A stretch of DNA of 39,640 bases from IMG/VR virus record IMGVR_UViG_3300008459_000126, positions 1 through 39,640 of that record, one strand, 5' to 3'. A program made the translations under genes and the position numbers. The notes under the pieces are model-generated. The model was given only the letters and a program-made list of their open reading frames with translations, made no database searches and was not told where the DNA came from. Numbering within the stretch: the stretch's first letter is position 1; each line of letters begins with the position of its first letter. The DNA is from a virus. Shown in pieces: positions 30,366 to 36,555 of this stretch.

Positions 30366-31412
30366 ATGATTGTCGAATACATTTGGATAGATGGTGGATA
30401 CCCCACAGCCCGCGTAAGGTCTAAGACTAAAGTCATACCCGAACGCAAAGATGTTATAGACCTCAGCGGTTTTCAAACACCCTCACCCGATGACCTACCC
30501 CTTTGGTCTTTCGATGGGTCGTCCACAAACCAAGCCGAGGGCAAATCATCTGATTGCCTACTAAAGCCCGTTAAAGTCATTAAAGACCCCCTCCGTGGCG
30601 AAGGTAGCTACCTCGCCTTGTGCGAAGTCTTTATGGCTGATGGCACATCACACCCCACCAACACACGCCAACAACTCAAAAGAGTACTCTATGTGTTTGA
30701 AGGGCAAGACGAATGGGTCGCCTTTGAACAAGAGTACACCCTTTACGATGGCTCTCGTCCTCTCGGCTTCCCCTCAGAGCGTAGATTCCCTCCCGCTCAA
30801 GGTCCATACTACTGCGGTGTTGGTGCAGATGAGGTTTCAGGTAGAGACCTCGTTGAAAAACACCTAGAGCTATGCCTCCAAGCAGGACTACCCATAACAG
30901 GCATCAACGCTGAAGTTATGCCAGGGCAATGGGAGTTTCAAATCGGTGGTCCAAATGTCAACGCCTTAGACGCTTCAGATTTCTTATGGCTCGCCCGTTG
31001 GCTTCTTTACCGCGTAGGTGAGGAATATGGCATCTCCGCTACCCTAGACCCTAAGCCCATCACAGGCGATTGGAACGGAGCTGGTATGCACACCAACTTC
31101 TCTACTCTCGAAATGAGAAGTCCAAATGGATACTCTAAAATCATCGAGGCGGTTGAGAACATTGGAAAGTTCGTCCCACAACACCTAGCCCGCTACGGAG
31201 CAGGCTATGAAATAAGACTCACAGGTCATCACGAAACCTGCCGCTATGATCAGTTCAAATGGGGTGTATCTGACCGCACTTGCTCCATACGCATCCCCCT
31301 AGAAACCCAAAGAGTCGGTTATGGGTACTTTGAGGATCGCAGACCCAACGCCAATGCTGACCCCTATCTTGTATGCGAAGCCATTATCCGCTCCATAACC
31401 AACACTTGGTGA
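30366..31412 (+). CDS. glnII: Glutamine synthetase, type II (eukaryotic-like)
   Basis: 348 residues, the usual GSII length (about 350) and much shorter than bacterial GlnA (about 470). Signatures in order: YIWIDGG...RVRSKTKVI; LPLWSFDGSSTNQAEGKSSD; the metal/glutamate segment EVMPGQWEFQIGG; AGMHTNFST; HHETCRYDQFKWGVSDRTCS then IRIP; and GYFEDRRPNANADPYLVCEA. Active-site glutamates and arginines expected for GSII are at these places, so it should make glutamine from glutamate, ammonia and ATP. A GSII in a phage is unusual; it could keep nitrogen flowing to nucleotide synthesis during infection. Ribosome-binding site is weak (AAGG about 12 bases upstream). It follows the cyclase pair after a 148-bp gap. 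Confidence 0.93.
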   Translation: MIVEYIWIDGGYPTARVRSKTKVIPERKDVIDLSGFQTPSPDDLPLWSFDGSSTNQAEGKSSDCLLKPVKVIKDPLRGEGSYLALCEVFMADGTSHPTNTRQQLKRVLYVFEGQDEWVAFEQEYTLYDGSRPLGFPSERRFPPAQGPYYCGVGADEVSGRDLVEKHLELCLQAGLPITGINAEVMPGQWEFQIGGPNVNALDASDFLWLARWLLYRVGEEYGISATLDPKPITGDWNGAGMHTNFSTLEMRSPNGYSKIIEAVENIGKFVPQHLARYGAGYEIRLTGHHETCRYDQFKWGVSDRTCSIRIPLETQRVGYGYFEDRRPNANADPYLVCEAIIRSITNTW

Positions 31413-32711: not shown

Positions 32712-33488
32712 ATGGCAGTCGTCTTTAAGAGGAATCAAATACTTGGGCGGGGCGACTTGGATATATTCCTCACCAACTCGGCAGGAAATGTATCCAATGC
32801 GGCTGAGATAACTTACGCCCTCTATTTCGTAGATGTAGGTCCACCTGAAACCGATGTGCTTATAGGTGACCCTGCCCGCCTACCTGAGAACCCTTCCGTG
32901 GGCGAGTACTATGCCTCAGTACGCATACCCACCACAGCTACTTTTGGTAGATATAGGATAAGGTGGACACTCAAGGAGCTAGTCAACTCTCCCGCTCAAA
33001 CGGTCGTGCAAGAGTTCGAGGTGGTATCCGACAGCACCGTCTTAGGAACCTCTATGACTGAGGGTCAAAAGTCAATGGTTTGGAAGCTCCGTATGCTGGT
33101 CCGTGACACTAACCCAGATAAATTTTATCACTTCCGCCCACCTGAGAACGAGTCCCACATTAACAACTACAATCGCGTCTTCGGACAAGTGTGGGAAGAC
33201 GAGGAAATGTTGGAGTACCTTGAGCGGTCTTTAGACTGGTGGAATATGCAACCTCCTGAGACCGAAGATATATCTAGCCTAGATCAGCTCATCGCTCAAA
33301 AGCCCGCTTGGAGAACCCCTATACTGCAAGGTGCCATTCAGTTCGCTGCTATGGCTCTACAAGCAAATTGGATAGTGGACGAGTTCTCGGTTAGGGGGGA
33401 TACAGAGCTAGAAGTGTTGCTCCCCAACGGTCAGAAGGTTAAGCTCACCATTGAGGAACTCCATGAAATAATAAAAGGAGGGTCATAA
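32712..33488 (+). CDS. Virion (neck/connector-type) protein, N-terminal half, fused to an N-intein
   Basis: 258 residues. Residues 1-105 form a beta-sandwich-like domain (NQILGRGDLDIFLTNSAGNV; SVGEYYASVRIPTTATFGRY; VVQEFEVV) as found in neck or adaptor proteins of large myophages; residues 115-225 are helical (KSMVWKLRMLVRDTNPDKFY, LEYLERSLDWWNMQPPE, GAIQFAAMALQANWIVDEF). At S226 the sequence changes to SVRGDTELEVLLPNGQKVKL followed by TIEELHEIIKGGS and a stop: intein block A with Ser as residue 1. Joining residues 1-225 to the C-extein at 34837 gives a continuous ALQANWIVDEF-TYSIGGISLDLERSSKYE, a natural structural protein sequence. The protein must therefore be restored by trans-splicing. 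Confidence 0.85.
   Translation: MAVVFKRNQILGRGDLDIFLTNSAGNVSNAAEITYALYFVDVGPPETDVLIGDPARLPENPSVGEYYASVRIPTTATFGRYRIRWTLKELVNSPAQTVVQEFEVVSDSTVLGTSMTEGQKSMVWKLRMLVRDTNPDKFYHFRPPENESHINNYNRVFGQVWEDEEMLEYLERSLDWWNMQPPETEDISSLDQLIAQKPAWRTPILQGAIQFAAMALQANWIVDEFSVRGDTELEVLLPNGQKVKLTIEELHEIIKGGS
33387..33485 (+). other. N-terminal part of a split intein (33 residues)
   Basis: Block A is SVRGDTELEVLLPNG (Ser1, G4-D5-T6), then KLTIEELHEII, a short helix common after block A. The break comes far earlier than in DnaE-type split inteins (about 100 residues), resembling atypically split inteins such as AceL-TerL. Pairs with the C-intein at 34432-34836. Confidence 0.88.
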
Positions 33489-34432
33489 TGCTAATAAAGC
33501 AAAAAGATATAATCCAAGAGTATGGATTCAATCAAAAGCACATAAGGAGCCTGATTACTGAAGGTATTCTCAAGACCTCACCTTCAGTCGGTAATTTACC
33601 ACTAATTGAATCCAGCTCTTTTAATCTACTAAAAGAGAACGAGCATTATGTTCTCTGTAAAGAATGTGGTTCAAGGCTCGCCCAAATAACCACAAAACAC
33701 TTAAGGGCTTGCTCGGGTTTGGATCTTAAATCTTACTTCGAAAAGTACACGGACGCTCCAGTTATGTGTGCTTTTACGAAGGGAAACAAAAAGAAGTCAG
33801 AAGAGCAAAAGATTAAACAATCTAACACTTTAAAAGAAAGGTTTAAAACACCTCAAGGAGAGGAGACAAGGAAAAAGATCAGTCAAGCAAGTGCAAAGAT
33901 GCAACAAAGTGAGATAGGTGATCGGATTAAGGAATCCCTAAGGAAATCCAATAAAAACCCAGTATCTATCTGCAAGAAGAGCAATAAGTCCAAAGCTATG
34001 TGGGCTACTAAAACCCACCATGAAAAAATACAAAAATGGCAAGAGGAAAATAGAGAGCAAGTTCTAGACAGCATTAAGAATGCTAGACAATACATCAAAC
34101 ACACCTTCACAAAACCACATCAGGCTCTCAAACAGATCCTCGTTTCAGAGCGTATAGAGACTCAAACCGAGCACAATGTTTCTTACTATCAAATAGACGA
34201 GGCCATACCCCACCTCAAAATCGCCATAGAGGTTGACGGTTGTTATTGGCATGGATGTGAAATATGTGGGTTTGCTCCAACCGACAGAATATCTGGAAAC
34301 GATAAGTCCAAAAACACAAACCTCTCTAAACTAGGATGGGCTGTTCTTAGAATAAAAGAACACGAGATCTACAACGCACCCCATATCTGTCTCGAAAAAA
34401 TAAAAACTCTAATAAAGCAAAGGAGCGTGTGA
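33488..34432 (+). CDS. Free-standing homing endonuclease, Vsr-like (EDxHD) nuclease domain
   Basis: 314 residues, starting in TAATG overlap with the N-intein stop, with AGGAGGG upstream. Residues 57-90 hold a Ros/MucR-like zinc motif (CKECGSRLAQITTKHLRACS, then GLDLKSYFEKY); residues 98-205 are a basic, Lys/Ser-rich helical linker that probably reads DNA; residues 241-305 are the nuclease: KIAIEVDGCYWHG (E248, D250, H255), a following NDKSKNTNLSKLGWAVLRIK and EHEI (E291). This is the very-short-patch-repair-like fold of the I-Bth0305I homing family, known from genes fractured by split inteins. It lies precisely between the two intein halves and probably targets the uninterrupted gene. Lower GC and A-rich codons than the flanking exteins mark it as an insert. 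Confidence 0.88.
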   Translation: MLIKQKDIIQEYGFNQKHIRSLITEGILKTSPSVGNLPLIESSSFNLLKENEHYVLCKECGSRLAQITTKHLRACSGLDLKSYFEKYTDAPVMCAFTKGNKKKSEEQKIKQSNTLKERFKTPQGEETRKKISQASAKMQQSEIGDRIKESLRKSNKNPVSICKKSNKSKAMWATKTHHEKIQKWQEENREQVLDSIKNARQYIKHTFTKPHQALKQILVSERIETQTEHNVSYYQIDEAIPHLKIAIEVDGCYWHGCEICGFAPTDRISGNDKSKNTNLSKLGWAVLRIKEHEIYNAPHICLEKIKTLIKQRSV

Positions 34433-34836
34433 TGGACAATCAAATCAAACAAACAATAAAACAAGCCTTCTTAAATGGGGAGCTTAAAGTACTGTCTGTA
34501 GACAATGACACCAGCGAAGTAAAATACCAAGTTATCTCTGATGTGATGAAGCACCACACACCGCATAAGAAGATACTTAGAATAGAACTCGATAATGGTC
34601 AATTTGTTATAGCCACCGAAGACCACTCCCTCTTCACACTAGAAAGCGGAAAAATTAAGCCCATTGAGACAGACCAATTTTCGGTGGGGGATACCCTCGT
34701 TATCGTGGAGGGAGAGCAAGTTAAAGAGTGTGCCATTACAAACATTACCCTAGAAGAAAATTGTGAACACACTTATGACCTATGTGTACCCAAAAACGAG
34801 AACTTTGTACTCGCTAATGGAATACTCGCCCACAAC
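34432..34836 (+). other. C-terminal part of a split intein (about 135 residues)
   Basis: Blocks B (ATEDHSLF), F (YDLCVPKNENFVLANG) and G (ILAHN followed by T) are all intact, with the penultimate His and terminal Asn needed for branch resolution. No endonuclease domain is inside it. N- and C-parts together give about 168 residues, mini-intein size. Confidence 0.88.
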
Positions 34837-35115
34837 ACATATTCCATCGGCGGCATATCCTTAGATTTGGAGCGTAGCTCCAAGTACGAAGGCTTAAAAT
34901 CTAGTGCCGAAGCCATGTGGCAGTCCAGCGTAGAAGCCAAAACACGAACCACCAAGTTCATGCGTGGACTACAACAACCCAAATATGGCATCGGTATCCG
35001 TTCAGCCTTCGGACCCCATGTGGGTCGAGGGGTTCTTGGTCCCAGAAACTTTTTGGTTTTCCCTTTGTTTATAGTTACTTACGATATGTTATCCGCATTT
35101 TTGAGTGTGGTCTAA
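34432..35115 (+). CDS. C-intein fused to the C-terminal half of the virion protein
   Basis: Start at ATG 34432 (one-base overlap with the endonuclease stop, AAGGAG 6 bases upstream); a GTG one codon earlier is too close to that site. The first 135 residues are the intein: LRIELDNGQFVIATEDHSLF (block B, T-x-x-H), then HTYDLCVPKNENFVLANGIL (block F) and AHN before Thr (block G, with Thr as +1). The C-extein follows from T at 34837: TYSIGGISLDLERSSKYEGL and GPHVGRGVLGPRN. Its last ~20 residues (FLVFPLFIVTYDMLSAFLSV) are hydrophobic and unlike the rest, so the true 3' end may have been altered, possibly by arrival of the next endonuclease gene. Confidence 0.85.
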   Translation: MDNQIKQTIKQAFLNGELKVLSVDNDTSEVKYQVISDVMKHHTPHKKILRIELDNGQFVIATEDHSLFTLESGKIKPIETDQFSVGDTLVIVEGEQVKECAITNITLEENCEHTYDLCVPKNENFVLANGILAHNTYSIGGISLDLERSSKYEGLKSSAEAMWQSSVEAKTRTTKFMRGLQQPKYGIGIRSAFGPHVGRGVLGPRNFLVFPLFIVTYDMLSAFLSVV

Positions 35116-35173: not shown

Positions 35174-35216
35174 ATAAGTTAGATTAACCTTTACCTTTAA
35201 GAAGGGGCTAACTTAT
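35174..35216 (+). promoter_or_regulatory. Leader stem covering the start codon of the repeat-type endonuclease gene
   Basis: ATAAGTTAG (35174-35182) and CTAACTTAT (35208-35216) are perfect arms. The 3' arm includes the first two bases of the ATG (35215), and the GAAGGGG ribosome-binding site (35201-35207) is in the loop. Confidence 0.65.
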
Positions 35217-36555
35217 GGCTGTTTGTCCATATTGTAAAAAAGAGTTCAGTACTCCAACTATTAGTGGGAGACACCGCAAGGTGTGTTGGACAGATTGGAA
35301 ACCTGAACCTATCGCACCCTGTGTATGTGGTCACAACTCTACATCCAATACACAAATGAAAAGGCACAAGAGTGGGTGTGATGTGTGGAAAGGTAGGGAT
35401 CAAAAGGCGATTGCTAATGCGAGAAGGAGAAATACTTACCTTGATCGTTATGGTGTATCTAACCCTGCCCACAACAAAGAGTCTGTAGAGAAGCGTAAGC
35501 AAACGAACCTAGAACGATATGGTGCAGAAAACCCTTTTTCAAAGGAGAGTCTCGTATTTGAAAAAGTACAAGATGCTCTTGAGGGTAAGAGACCTGTCTT
35601 AAAGGGTAAGGAAAATCCGTTTGCGTGGGAGAGTGTACAGGATAAGATTAAGCAGACAAATCTTGAGAGATATGGTGCGGTCAACCCTCAGCAAAACAAT
35701 GAGGTTAAGGCTAAAACTCAAGCGACTAACCTTGATCGTTATGGTGGAACGCTATTGGGTTCAGATGAACTTAGGGCTAAGATCGAGGCTACGAATATGG
35801 ATAAATATGGTGTGCCTAATCCTAGTATGAGTGATGAGGTAAAGGCTAAGATCGTAGCCACGAATATGGAGCGGTATGGAGTACCCTACACAAGTGCTGT
35901 GGAGGAGTTTAGGCAGAAGCAAATCAAAACGATGATTGAGAACTATGGTAGCCACTATTTCGCCTCACAAAAGGGCAAAGACGATATTAGGGCTGTGATG
36001 ATGGATAGATATGGGGTTGAGTTTCCTGGTAGTATCGAGGGGCATTGGGATAGGGTTAAAGAAACCTTCCTAGAACGCTATGGTGTAGAACACCCACTAC
36101 AGCTTCAAGAGTTTAGGGACAAACAGTACGAGACAAACATAAAGAGGTATGGTACACCTTTTTTGGGCTTAGTCGCAAATAGAATGAATGGCTTCGAGTC
36201 GAGGGTTGCCTCGTACAGCGACAAGCTCACATTTACAGGTAATGGGGCGTATTGGAGATTTCTCCCTAGCAAGAAGAACTTCGATGGATCTATTGGTGGC
36301 TACAAGAACCCAGACTTTGTGGTTTGTGTGAGTGAAGACTCAGATCATCCTTATCGTGGTGCTACAAAGGTTGTAGAGTGTTTTGGAGATTATTGGCATG
36401 GGGAGTCTAAGACGGGTATGAGTAAAGAGGATCATGAGCGAAACACGATAGAGGCTTACGCTGAGGTAGGGCTTGATTGCCTTGTGATTTGGGAATCTGA
36501 TATTCTCTCAGACGAGCAGTCGGTTGTAGATAAGGTGAGGGTATTTCTGTCATAG
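35215..36555 (+). CDS. Homing-endonuclease-like protein: zinc fingers, about ten RYG repeats, Vsr-like nuclease (446 aa)
   Basis: N-terminus has two zinc-finger-like motifs (CPYCKKEFSTPTISGRHRKV-C and CVCGHNSTSNTQMKRHKSGC). Residues about 70-320 are some ten tandem units of about 23 residues with core T-N-(L/M)-(E/D)-R-Y-G-(V/A)-x-(N/H)-P. Similar repeats occur in phage endonuclease-type proteins, where they probably lie along DNA. Residues about 340-446 form the nuclease: GYKNPDFVV, KVVECFGDYWHG (Glu, Asp, His), ERNTIEAYAEVGLDCLVIWE, matching the Vsr/EDxHD layout of the endonuclease at 33488. No intron or intein is visible in this gene, so it looks like a free-standing selfish element placed right after the split-intein locus. 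Confidence 0.85.
   Translation: MAVCPYCKKEFSTPTISGRHRKVCWTDWKPEPIAPCVCGHNSTSNTQMKRHKSGCDVWKGRDQKAIANARRRNTYLDRYGVSNPAHNKESVEKRKQTNLERYGAENPFSKESLVFEKVQDALEGKRPVLKGKENPFAWESVQDKIKQTNLERYGAVNPQQNNEVKAKTQATNLDRYGGTLLGSDELRAKIEATNMDKYGVPNPSMSDEVKAKIVATNMERYGVPYTSAVEEFRQKQIKTMIENYGSHYFASQKGKDDIRAVMMDRYGVEFPGSIEGHWDRVKETFLERYGVEHPLQLQEFRDKQYETNIKRYGTPFLGLVANRMNGFESRVASYSDKLTFTGNGAYWRFLPSKKNFDGSIGGYKNPDFVVCVSEDSDHPYRGATKVVECFGDYWHGESKTGMSKEDHERNTIEAYAEVGLDCLVIWESDILSDEQSVVDKVRVFLS

Follow-up and report, generated by a model that had tools for sequence, protein, structure and literature searches.

Described systems and the locus under study

Genes fractured by split inteins and accompanied by EDxHD/Vsr-like homing endonucleases were reportedly described by Dassa et al. 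in 2009 (NAR 37:2560). The locus considered here, on the + strand at positions 32712-35115 of the IMG/VR virus record IMGVR_UViG_3300008459_000126 (positions 1 to 39,640; this whole stretch of 39,640 nucleotides is called the window below), is a phage gene that appears to be broken in the same manner by an atypically split intein. The two reportedly have in common a free-standing gene for a Vsr-related nuclease, placed between gene halves that carry complementary intein pieces, in phage-like DNA. The present gene appears to be set apart from it by a probable neck or virion host protein, a split after 33 intein residues, two insertion sites with two nuclease families, and healed and nuclease-less forms.

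Among the atypically split inteins of the terminase large subunit (TerL), Cat-TerL is an engineered consensus. The N- and C-pieces of this group measure 25 and 104 residues in AceL-TerL, 37 and 115 in GOS-TerL, and 30 and 104 in Cat-TerL (PMC11766414). The likeness to the window lies in the short N-piece and long C-piece, GOS-TerL also having Ser1; compared by description and not by sequence, the TerL inteins differ in their host gene and in having Cys at position +1, where Thr or Ser is found here, and the C-piece here has 135 residues. The first-pass annotation of the window had placed its break, after 33 residues, at the extreme of AceL-TerL. The break is indeed atypical, but natural N-pieces of 25 (AceL-TerL) and 37 residues (GOS-TerL) are on record, and 33 is therefore within the natural range and not a record.

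In phage MIJ3, the DNA polymerase gene PolB is interrupted by a split intein with an HNH nuclease gene between the gene halves, blocks A to N4 being on the N side (PMC6892783). The points of agreement are a jumbo phage, a split intein, a nuclease gene between the halves and Ser1, and the points of difference are the DNA polymerase host, the HNH nuclease and the usual split position. The nearest intein relatives outside the present gene in the phage collection are in the DNA polymerases of Salicola phage SCTP-2 (31% identity, E 2e-3) and Campylobacter phage CC_R7 (29%, E 3e-4). Two structures are related in fold and distant in sequence: the Aes123 PolB1 split intein (9hth; Z 18.4, 28% identity), from another host gene, and the VidaL intein (6vgv; Z 18.0, root-mean-square deviation 1.7 over 135 residues, 17% identity), which we take to be atypically split and which occurs in another context. 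Genes fractured by split inteins are thus already known, as are natural splits after 25-37 residues, so the window's element is not a new category.

Identification of the split intein

The locus consists of three genes with a one-base overlap at each junction (TAATG, 33486-33490; TGATG, 34430-34434). The first (32712-33488, 258 aa) encodes the N-extein, residues 1-225 (32712..33386), which ends in WIVDEF and is modelled as an immunoglobulin-like (Ig-like) N-terminal domain followed by helices, and then the intein N-piece of 33 residues (33387..33485), with Ser1 and block A SVRGDTELEV. The second (33488-34432, 314 aa) is the nuclease gene, whose start overlaps the stop of the N-piece. The third begins within the nuclease stop, with ATG at 34432 (an alternative GTG start at 34429 is possible), and runs to 35115; its product starts with the 135-residue intein C-piece (34432..34836), with blocks B (TEDH), F and G (GILAHN), ending in ...YDLCVPKNENFVLANGILAHN, and continues with the remaining 92 residues of the phage protein, the C-extein (34837..35115), of which Thr+1 is the first residue.

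The residues expected of a class 1 intein (S1, TEDH, AHN, T+1) are read directly from the window. The joined intein (168 aa) matches Pfam Intein_splicing (1.7e-15), TIGR01445 (7.4e-11) and TIGR01443 (2.5e-7), and the C-half alone matches Intein_splicing at 5.6e-15, its 135-residue intein part giving 3e-8 for TIGR01445 and 1.8e-7 for TIGR01443. Joining the N-piece to the C-piece raised the TIGR01445 score from 34.5 to 42.9 bits. In PDB, where the archaeal CDC21 intein 6rpq matches best, the C-half with its extein reached 1.4e-9 and the joined intein 9.9e-13, in an alignment that extends further toward the N-terminus.

The fold was examined on a relative, the contiguous intein of locus L040, which stands in for the window's pieces: the N-piece is 88% identical to its residues 1-30 and the C-piece 81% identical to it. 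The AlphaFold model of the L040 intein (mean predicted local distance difference test, pLDDT, 94.6) retrieved 50 listed PDB entries, all of them Hint domains and the majority inteins, at Z values between 21.6 and 14.9, and so the Hint fold is attributed to the window's intein through this relative. The window's split point maps to loop 31-37 of the model, between the first two helices, and divides the intein into 33 and 135 residues, well before the position where an endonuclease is usually inserted. When the window is compared with locus L011, the ratio of non-synonymous to synonymous substitution rates (dN/dS) amounts to 0.04 in the N-piece and to 0.07 in both the C-piece and the nuclease. 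Although dS is close to saturation, these values point to purifying selection on the intein pieces and on the nuclease. The split intein that the first-pass annotation had proposed is thereby borne out, and the element is very probably a class 1 intein with an atypical split, using Ser1, a terminal Asn and Thr+1, trans-splicing being deduced from motifs, fold and selection.

The nuclease between the halves

The first-pass annotation had also read the free-standing gene between the halves (33488..34432) as an EDxHD/Vsr-type nuclease, and the profile searches agree. Its product matches TIGR00632 Vsr at 5e-7 with 30 bits (curated cut-off 97.85) and, in Pfam, MTES_1575 (1.5e-7), DUF559 (1.2e-5, 25.6 bits, above the cut-off of 20.6) and Vsr (3.2e-5, 24.1 bits, cut-off 27); by profile it is accordingly related to Vsr. 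A weak profile match (E 0.02) was obtained to 3r3p, named mobile intron protein in PDB, which is presumably I-Bth0305I. A pattern-based nuclease scan placed the Vsr-like nuclease at this insertion site alone (5/5 loci).

Exteins and intein-less relatives

Protein searches with the N-half and with the full extein gave 85 IMG/VR contigs (39 loci in one search and the best 80 of 117 in another, 5 contigs coming from the first alone). These contigs are not all independent, as the window and L009, L040 and L041, L042 and L043, and L011 and L039 are identical across the compared stretches. The gene is uninterrupted at every covered site in 75 of the 85 contigs (one being a fragment that covers only the site interrupted in the window, hereafter site b), and the proteins of these 75 continue past residue 225 into the family's C-part, typically as ...WIVDEF followed by DYSIGGISL.... 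Among the 85, intein carriers alone have an N-half ending near residue 258. The C-extein predicted to match the N-half does so: against L012, the nearest uninterrupted relative, 211 of 225 N-extein residues (94%) and 64 of 73 C-extein residues (L012 226-298) are identical.

Ser and Thr at +1 are residues that the splicing chemistry can use. Among 80 loci scanned by motif, 75 without intein b were readable at this position and have Asp (70), Asn (3) or Glu (2); the five unread loci are three intein-b carriers, L083 and L084. In the four intein-b alleles read, the +1 residue is Thr (window) or Ser (L011, L046, L040). An Asp at +9, the tenth C-extein residue, is common to these four alleles and also occurs in 3 of the 75 loci without intein b.

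The protein of the window and of several relatives (L016-L018, L020) is longer by about 20-23 residues at its C-terminus, the version in these relatives ending in FLSVAQGV; in other relatives the protein stops at PRNFL.

A second insertion site and the states of the allele

The site-b intein was found in 7 of the 85 contigs, one of which ends inside the nuclease gene. A second intein, after residue 133 (site a), is present in 6 of 84 covering contigs and also in LR745208.1 (485 kb). Site-a inteins have Cys1 and Cys+1, intein-less alleles having Asn at that +1 place; they are 29-36% identical to the L040 intein b over the compared pieces, and their break falls at nearly the same position. Their intervening gene encodes a TnsA-like nuclease (PF08722: L042 6.6e-9, L003 1.2e-9) and not a Vsr-like one.

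Most contigs are in the empty state. The split form with nuclease occurs at site b in the window, L011, L010 (where the contig end cuts it off) and L046, and at site a in L042, L040 and L003. At site a of L046 the intein is still split and the nuclease is reduced to a 33-codon in-frame remnant, which, judged against L042, is consistent with a deletion between GAAAAG repeats. L046, known from one contig, is broken at both sites, so that its protein is encoded by three genes: the first for the N-extein and N-intein a, the second for C-intein a, the middle extein and N-intein b, and the third for C-intein b and the C-extein. L040, represented by two contigs identical over 3,501 bases, is split at site a and contiguous at site b. 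Its contiguous frame (...IIKEERMMDN...) retains, in frame and in place, the ribosome-site-like sequence and the start codons of a former C-piece, the DNA reading AAAAGAGGAG-CGT-ATG-ATG (GGAG-CGT-ATG-ATG). The L040 intein b is therefore apparently a split intein that has returned to the contiguous form.

An order of events in which the contiguous intein is ancestral at site b, was split more than once by nuclease insertion, and is preserved rather than healed in L040 is thought unlikely, while retaining a real share of probability. The tree of intein b, rooted with the distant site-a inteins, has no firm root (open forks, long branches), which leaves room for this order, and the contiguous site-a intein of L045 is without a start-codon trace. 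Against it stand the ribosome-site-like sequence and start codons kept in frame in L040, and the nucleotide identities of its C-intein, 86-87% to those of the split L011 and L046, whereas the split form of the window is 78% identical to any of them. As the L040 C-intein is nearer to the split L011 and L046 than the window form is, a single fusion is the more economical account, the alternative being two splits at the same spot with homologous nucleases.

It is reasonably likely that one probable virion gene of a jumbo-phage lineage is the shared arena of two related atypically split inteins, one with a Vsr-like and the other with a TnsA-like nuclease; that in one phage the protein has to be put together from three polypeptides through two trans-splicing reactions, one Cys1/Cys+1 and the other Ser1/Ser+1; and that the alleles represent a full homing cycle, including nuclease loss and return from split to contiguous. 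As part of the same reading, a split intein having become contiguous again, splitting would be reversible in nature.

Mobility of the element

The presence of intein b requires 5 changes on the N-extein tree (29 rows, L003 being left out as too distant), where change counts do not separate gain from loss, and a single carrier clade is rejected (approximately unbiased test, p-AU 2.85e-5). Divergence was further compared at third positions, scored at codons encoding the same residue in both sequences. Between L011 and L046, identity is 113/127 in the C-intein b and 229/276 in the nuclease for 128/236 in the extein (p 2.8e-12 and 1.9e-12); between L042 and L040, it is 114/121 in the C-intein a and 242/258 in the nuclease a for 101/257 in the extein (p 5.1e-27 and 3.8e-43). 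To judge from these comparisons the element moves laterally, because its distribution on the extein tree is patchy and some phages resemble each other much more closely in the element than in the host gene.

In the 54 bases after site b, L011 is identical to its near relative L042 at 32/54 positions, versus 756/837 elsewhere (p 1e-8), and to the window at 43/54, no more than elsewhere (p 0.42). This stretch, which was picked after inspection of the aligned flanks, gives a hint of a co-conversion tract. A second dip in identity is located 300-360 bases upstream, in a variable linker, and the tract is not clearly present in L046 and L040. A pattern-based, non-exhaustive viral scan for relatives of intein b found 6/6 loci at the same site, and one archaeal contig in the pattern-based scan matches intein b at 27% identity.

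Host protein and virus

In the AlphaFold model of L012 (mean pLDDT 72.8), the N-terminal 110 residues of the extein form an Ig-like domain (Z up to 9.4), followed by a mostly helical remainder; both intein sites fall in or next to loops of low confidence (134-159 and 221-236). The family matches phrog_17327 (head-tail connector) weakly, in 27 of 46 members (best 4.8e-4), and the homologue in Tunturiibacter phage Tunturi_5 is annotated as head-tail connector. A distant homologue (24% identity), gp165 of Bacillus phage G, lies about 8 kb before the tail sheath gene, and the window holds one baseplate wedge-like gene (1/10 proteins scanned); these two neighbourhoods make a virion protein likely. 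The first-pass annotation had favoured a structural, neck-type protein: its structural part is made likely by the Tunturi_5 annotation, phrog_17327 and the baseplate wedge-like gene, and the neck assignment, weakly supported, is kept as a best guess.

The extein was also considered as a terminase large subunit and this was rejected, the extein family having no terminase match and the lone weak terminase PHROG match (E 0.048) falling on the intein part. The N-terminal Ig-like domain occurs a second time upstream of the extein gene in 27 of 85 loci scanned (L045, L079-L122; 24-34% identity), within 2 kb in 25 of the 27.

The three genes of the window are found unchanged in a contig of 290,179 bases, which makes the virus probably a jumbo phage. 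By inspection, a ribonucleotide-reductase-looking gene of this contig (L141) also contains, at 128500-134000, a contiguous intein whose insert looks like LAGLIDADG, and a TerL-looking gene on a contig of 312 kb (L143), from a phage with the apparently healed intein b, contains a large contiguous intein.

Proposed mechanism and alternatives

In the mechanism proposed, a conserved jumbo-phage gene, probably for a head-tail neck protein, would be broken in two at the junction of residues 225 and 226 by an atypically split class 1 intein that is mobile. The two polypeptides would meet through their intein pieces (33 + 135 residues) and fold into one Hint domain, and, from established knowledge of inteins, an acyl shift at Ser1, transesterification to Thr+1, Asn cyclisation and ligation should follow, so that the intein is excised and the exteins become a single 317-residue protein. 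The Vsr-like nuclease would be the homing enzyme, presumably cutting intein-less copies of the gene in co-infections, and repair from the carrier genome would copy the whole cassette into the cut allele. Spread would be followed by decay, either by deletion of the nuclease with the intein still split or, apparently, by a deletion that re-fuses the halves. This explanation as a whole, from mobile split intein and trans-splicing to nuclease-driven homing and later decay, is held with high confidence.

Several observations weigh against it. The nuclease scores under the NCBI and Pfam cut-offs of the Vsr family. The 33-residue N-piece alone matches no NCBIfam family and, in Pfam, a single irrelevant one (E 0.076), so that block A cannot be called from this piece by itself. 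The window's cassette is not clearly closer to that of L011 than the exteins are (C-intein, p 0.30; nuclease, p 0.22), and given this lack of contrast the window's own copy may be an older resident. As to the host protein, no Pfam family was found for the N-half or the full extein, the PDB profile search with the extein gave chance-level matches (best E 0.47), and Foldseek reached 2.3e-3 at best, with an unrelated enzyme first and a chain of a phage portal-adaptor complex third; VIA matches cover the N-terminal Ig-like domain alone, the helical part being without a clear fold match. No virion family was found among ten neighbour proteins in relatives.

A gene merely left in pieces by a homing nuclease, whose halves form a non-covalent two-chain protein and whose intein-like ends have decayed, is considered very improbable. 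A phage ribonucleotide reductase in pieces does keep its function (cited in PMC10448857), and splicing in the window is deduced from sequence. Decayed ends are, on the other hand, at odds with the intact catalytic motifs and with the dN/dS of the intein pieces (0.04 and 0.07), and Ser or Thr at +1, found in the four intein-b alleles read and in 0 of the 75 readable loci without intein b, answers a need specific to splicing. An assembly or frameshift artefact can practically be set aside, for although all the evidence comes from metagenomic contigs, 4,601 of 4,601 bases of the window match the 290,179-base contig letter for letter, the arrangements of L040, L042 and L011 are each found again, without a single difference, in another contig, and the overlapping starts and stops are conserved under strong purifying selection.

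Neighbouring genes

Directly downstream of the C-extein, a free-standing homing-endonuclease-like gene (35215..36555, + strand) has DUF7487 repeats (Pfam DUF7487 3.7e-43; PHROG homing endonuclease 3.9e-36) and a C-terminal DYWHG motif. By inspection, genes resembling it also adjoin intein-less alleles. A glutamine-synthetase-like gene is located at 30366-31412 (Pfam Gln-synt_C 6.3e-20); such an auxiliary gene has been reported in aquatic moraphages as well (PMC12619734).

Implications

What is unusual about this gene is its probable virion function, its two sites served by two families of nuclease, the allele in three pieces and the apparent reversion of a split intein to a contiguous one. No recognisable description of a split intein in a neck gene, or of a split-to-contiguous reversal, was met in a literature search for which most subscription papers were outside reach. 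To our knowledge, such a return is usually left out of consideration.

The short N-pieces (33-35 residues) could serve protein labelling, and in the doubly split allele nature provides two related split inteins that have to avoid cross-reacting within one protein. Since a single gene family includes empty alleles, split alleles with and without nuclease, contiguous alleles and a doubly split one, the birth, spread, decay and apparent healing of such elements can be compared directly.

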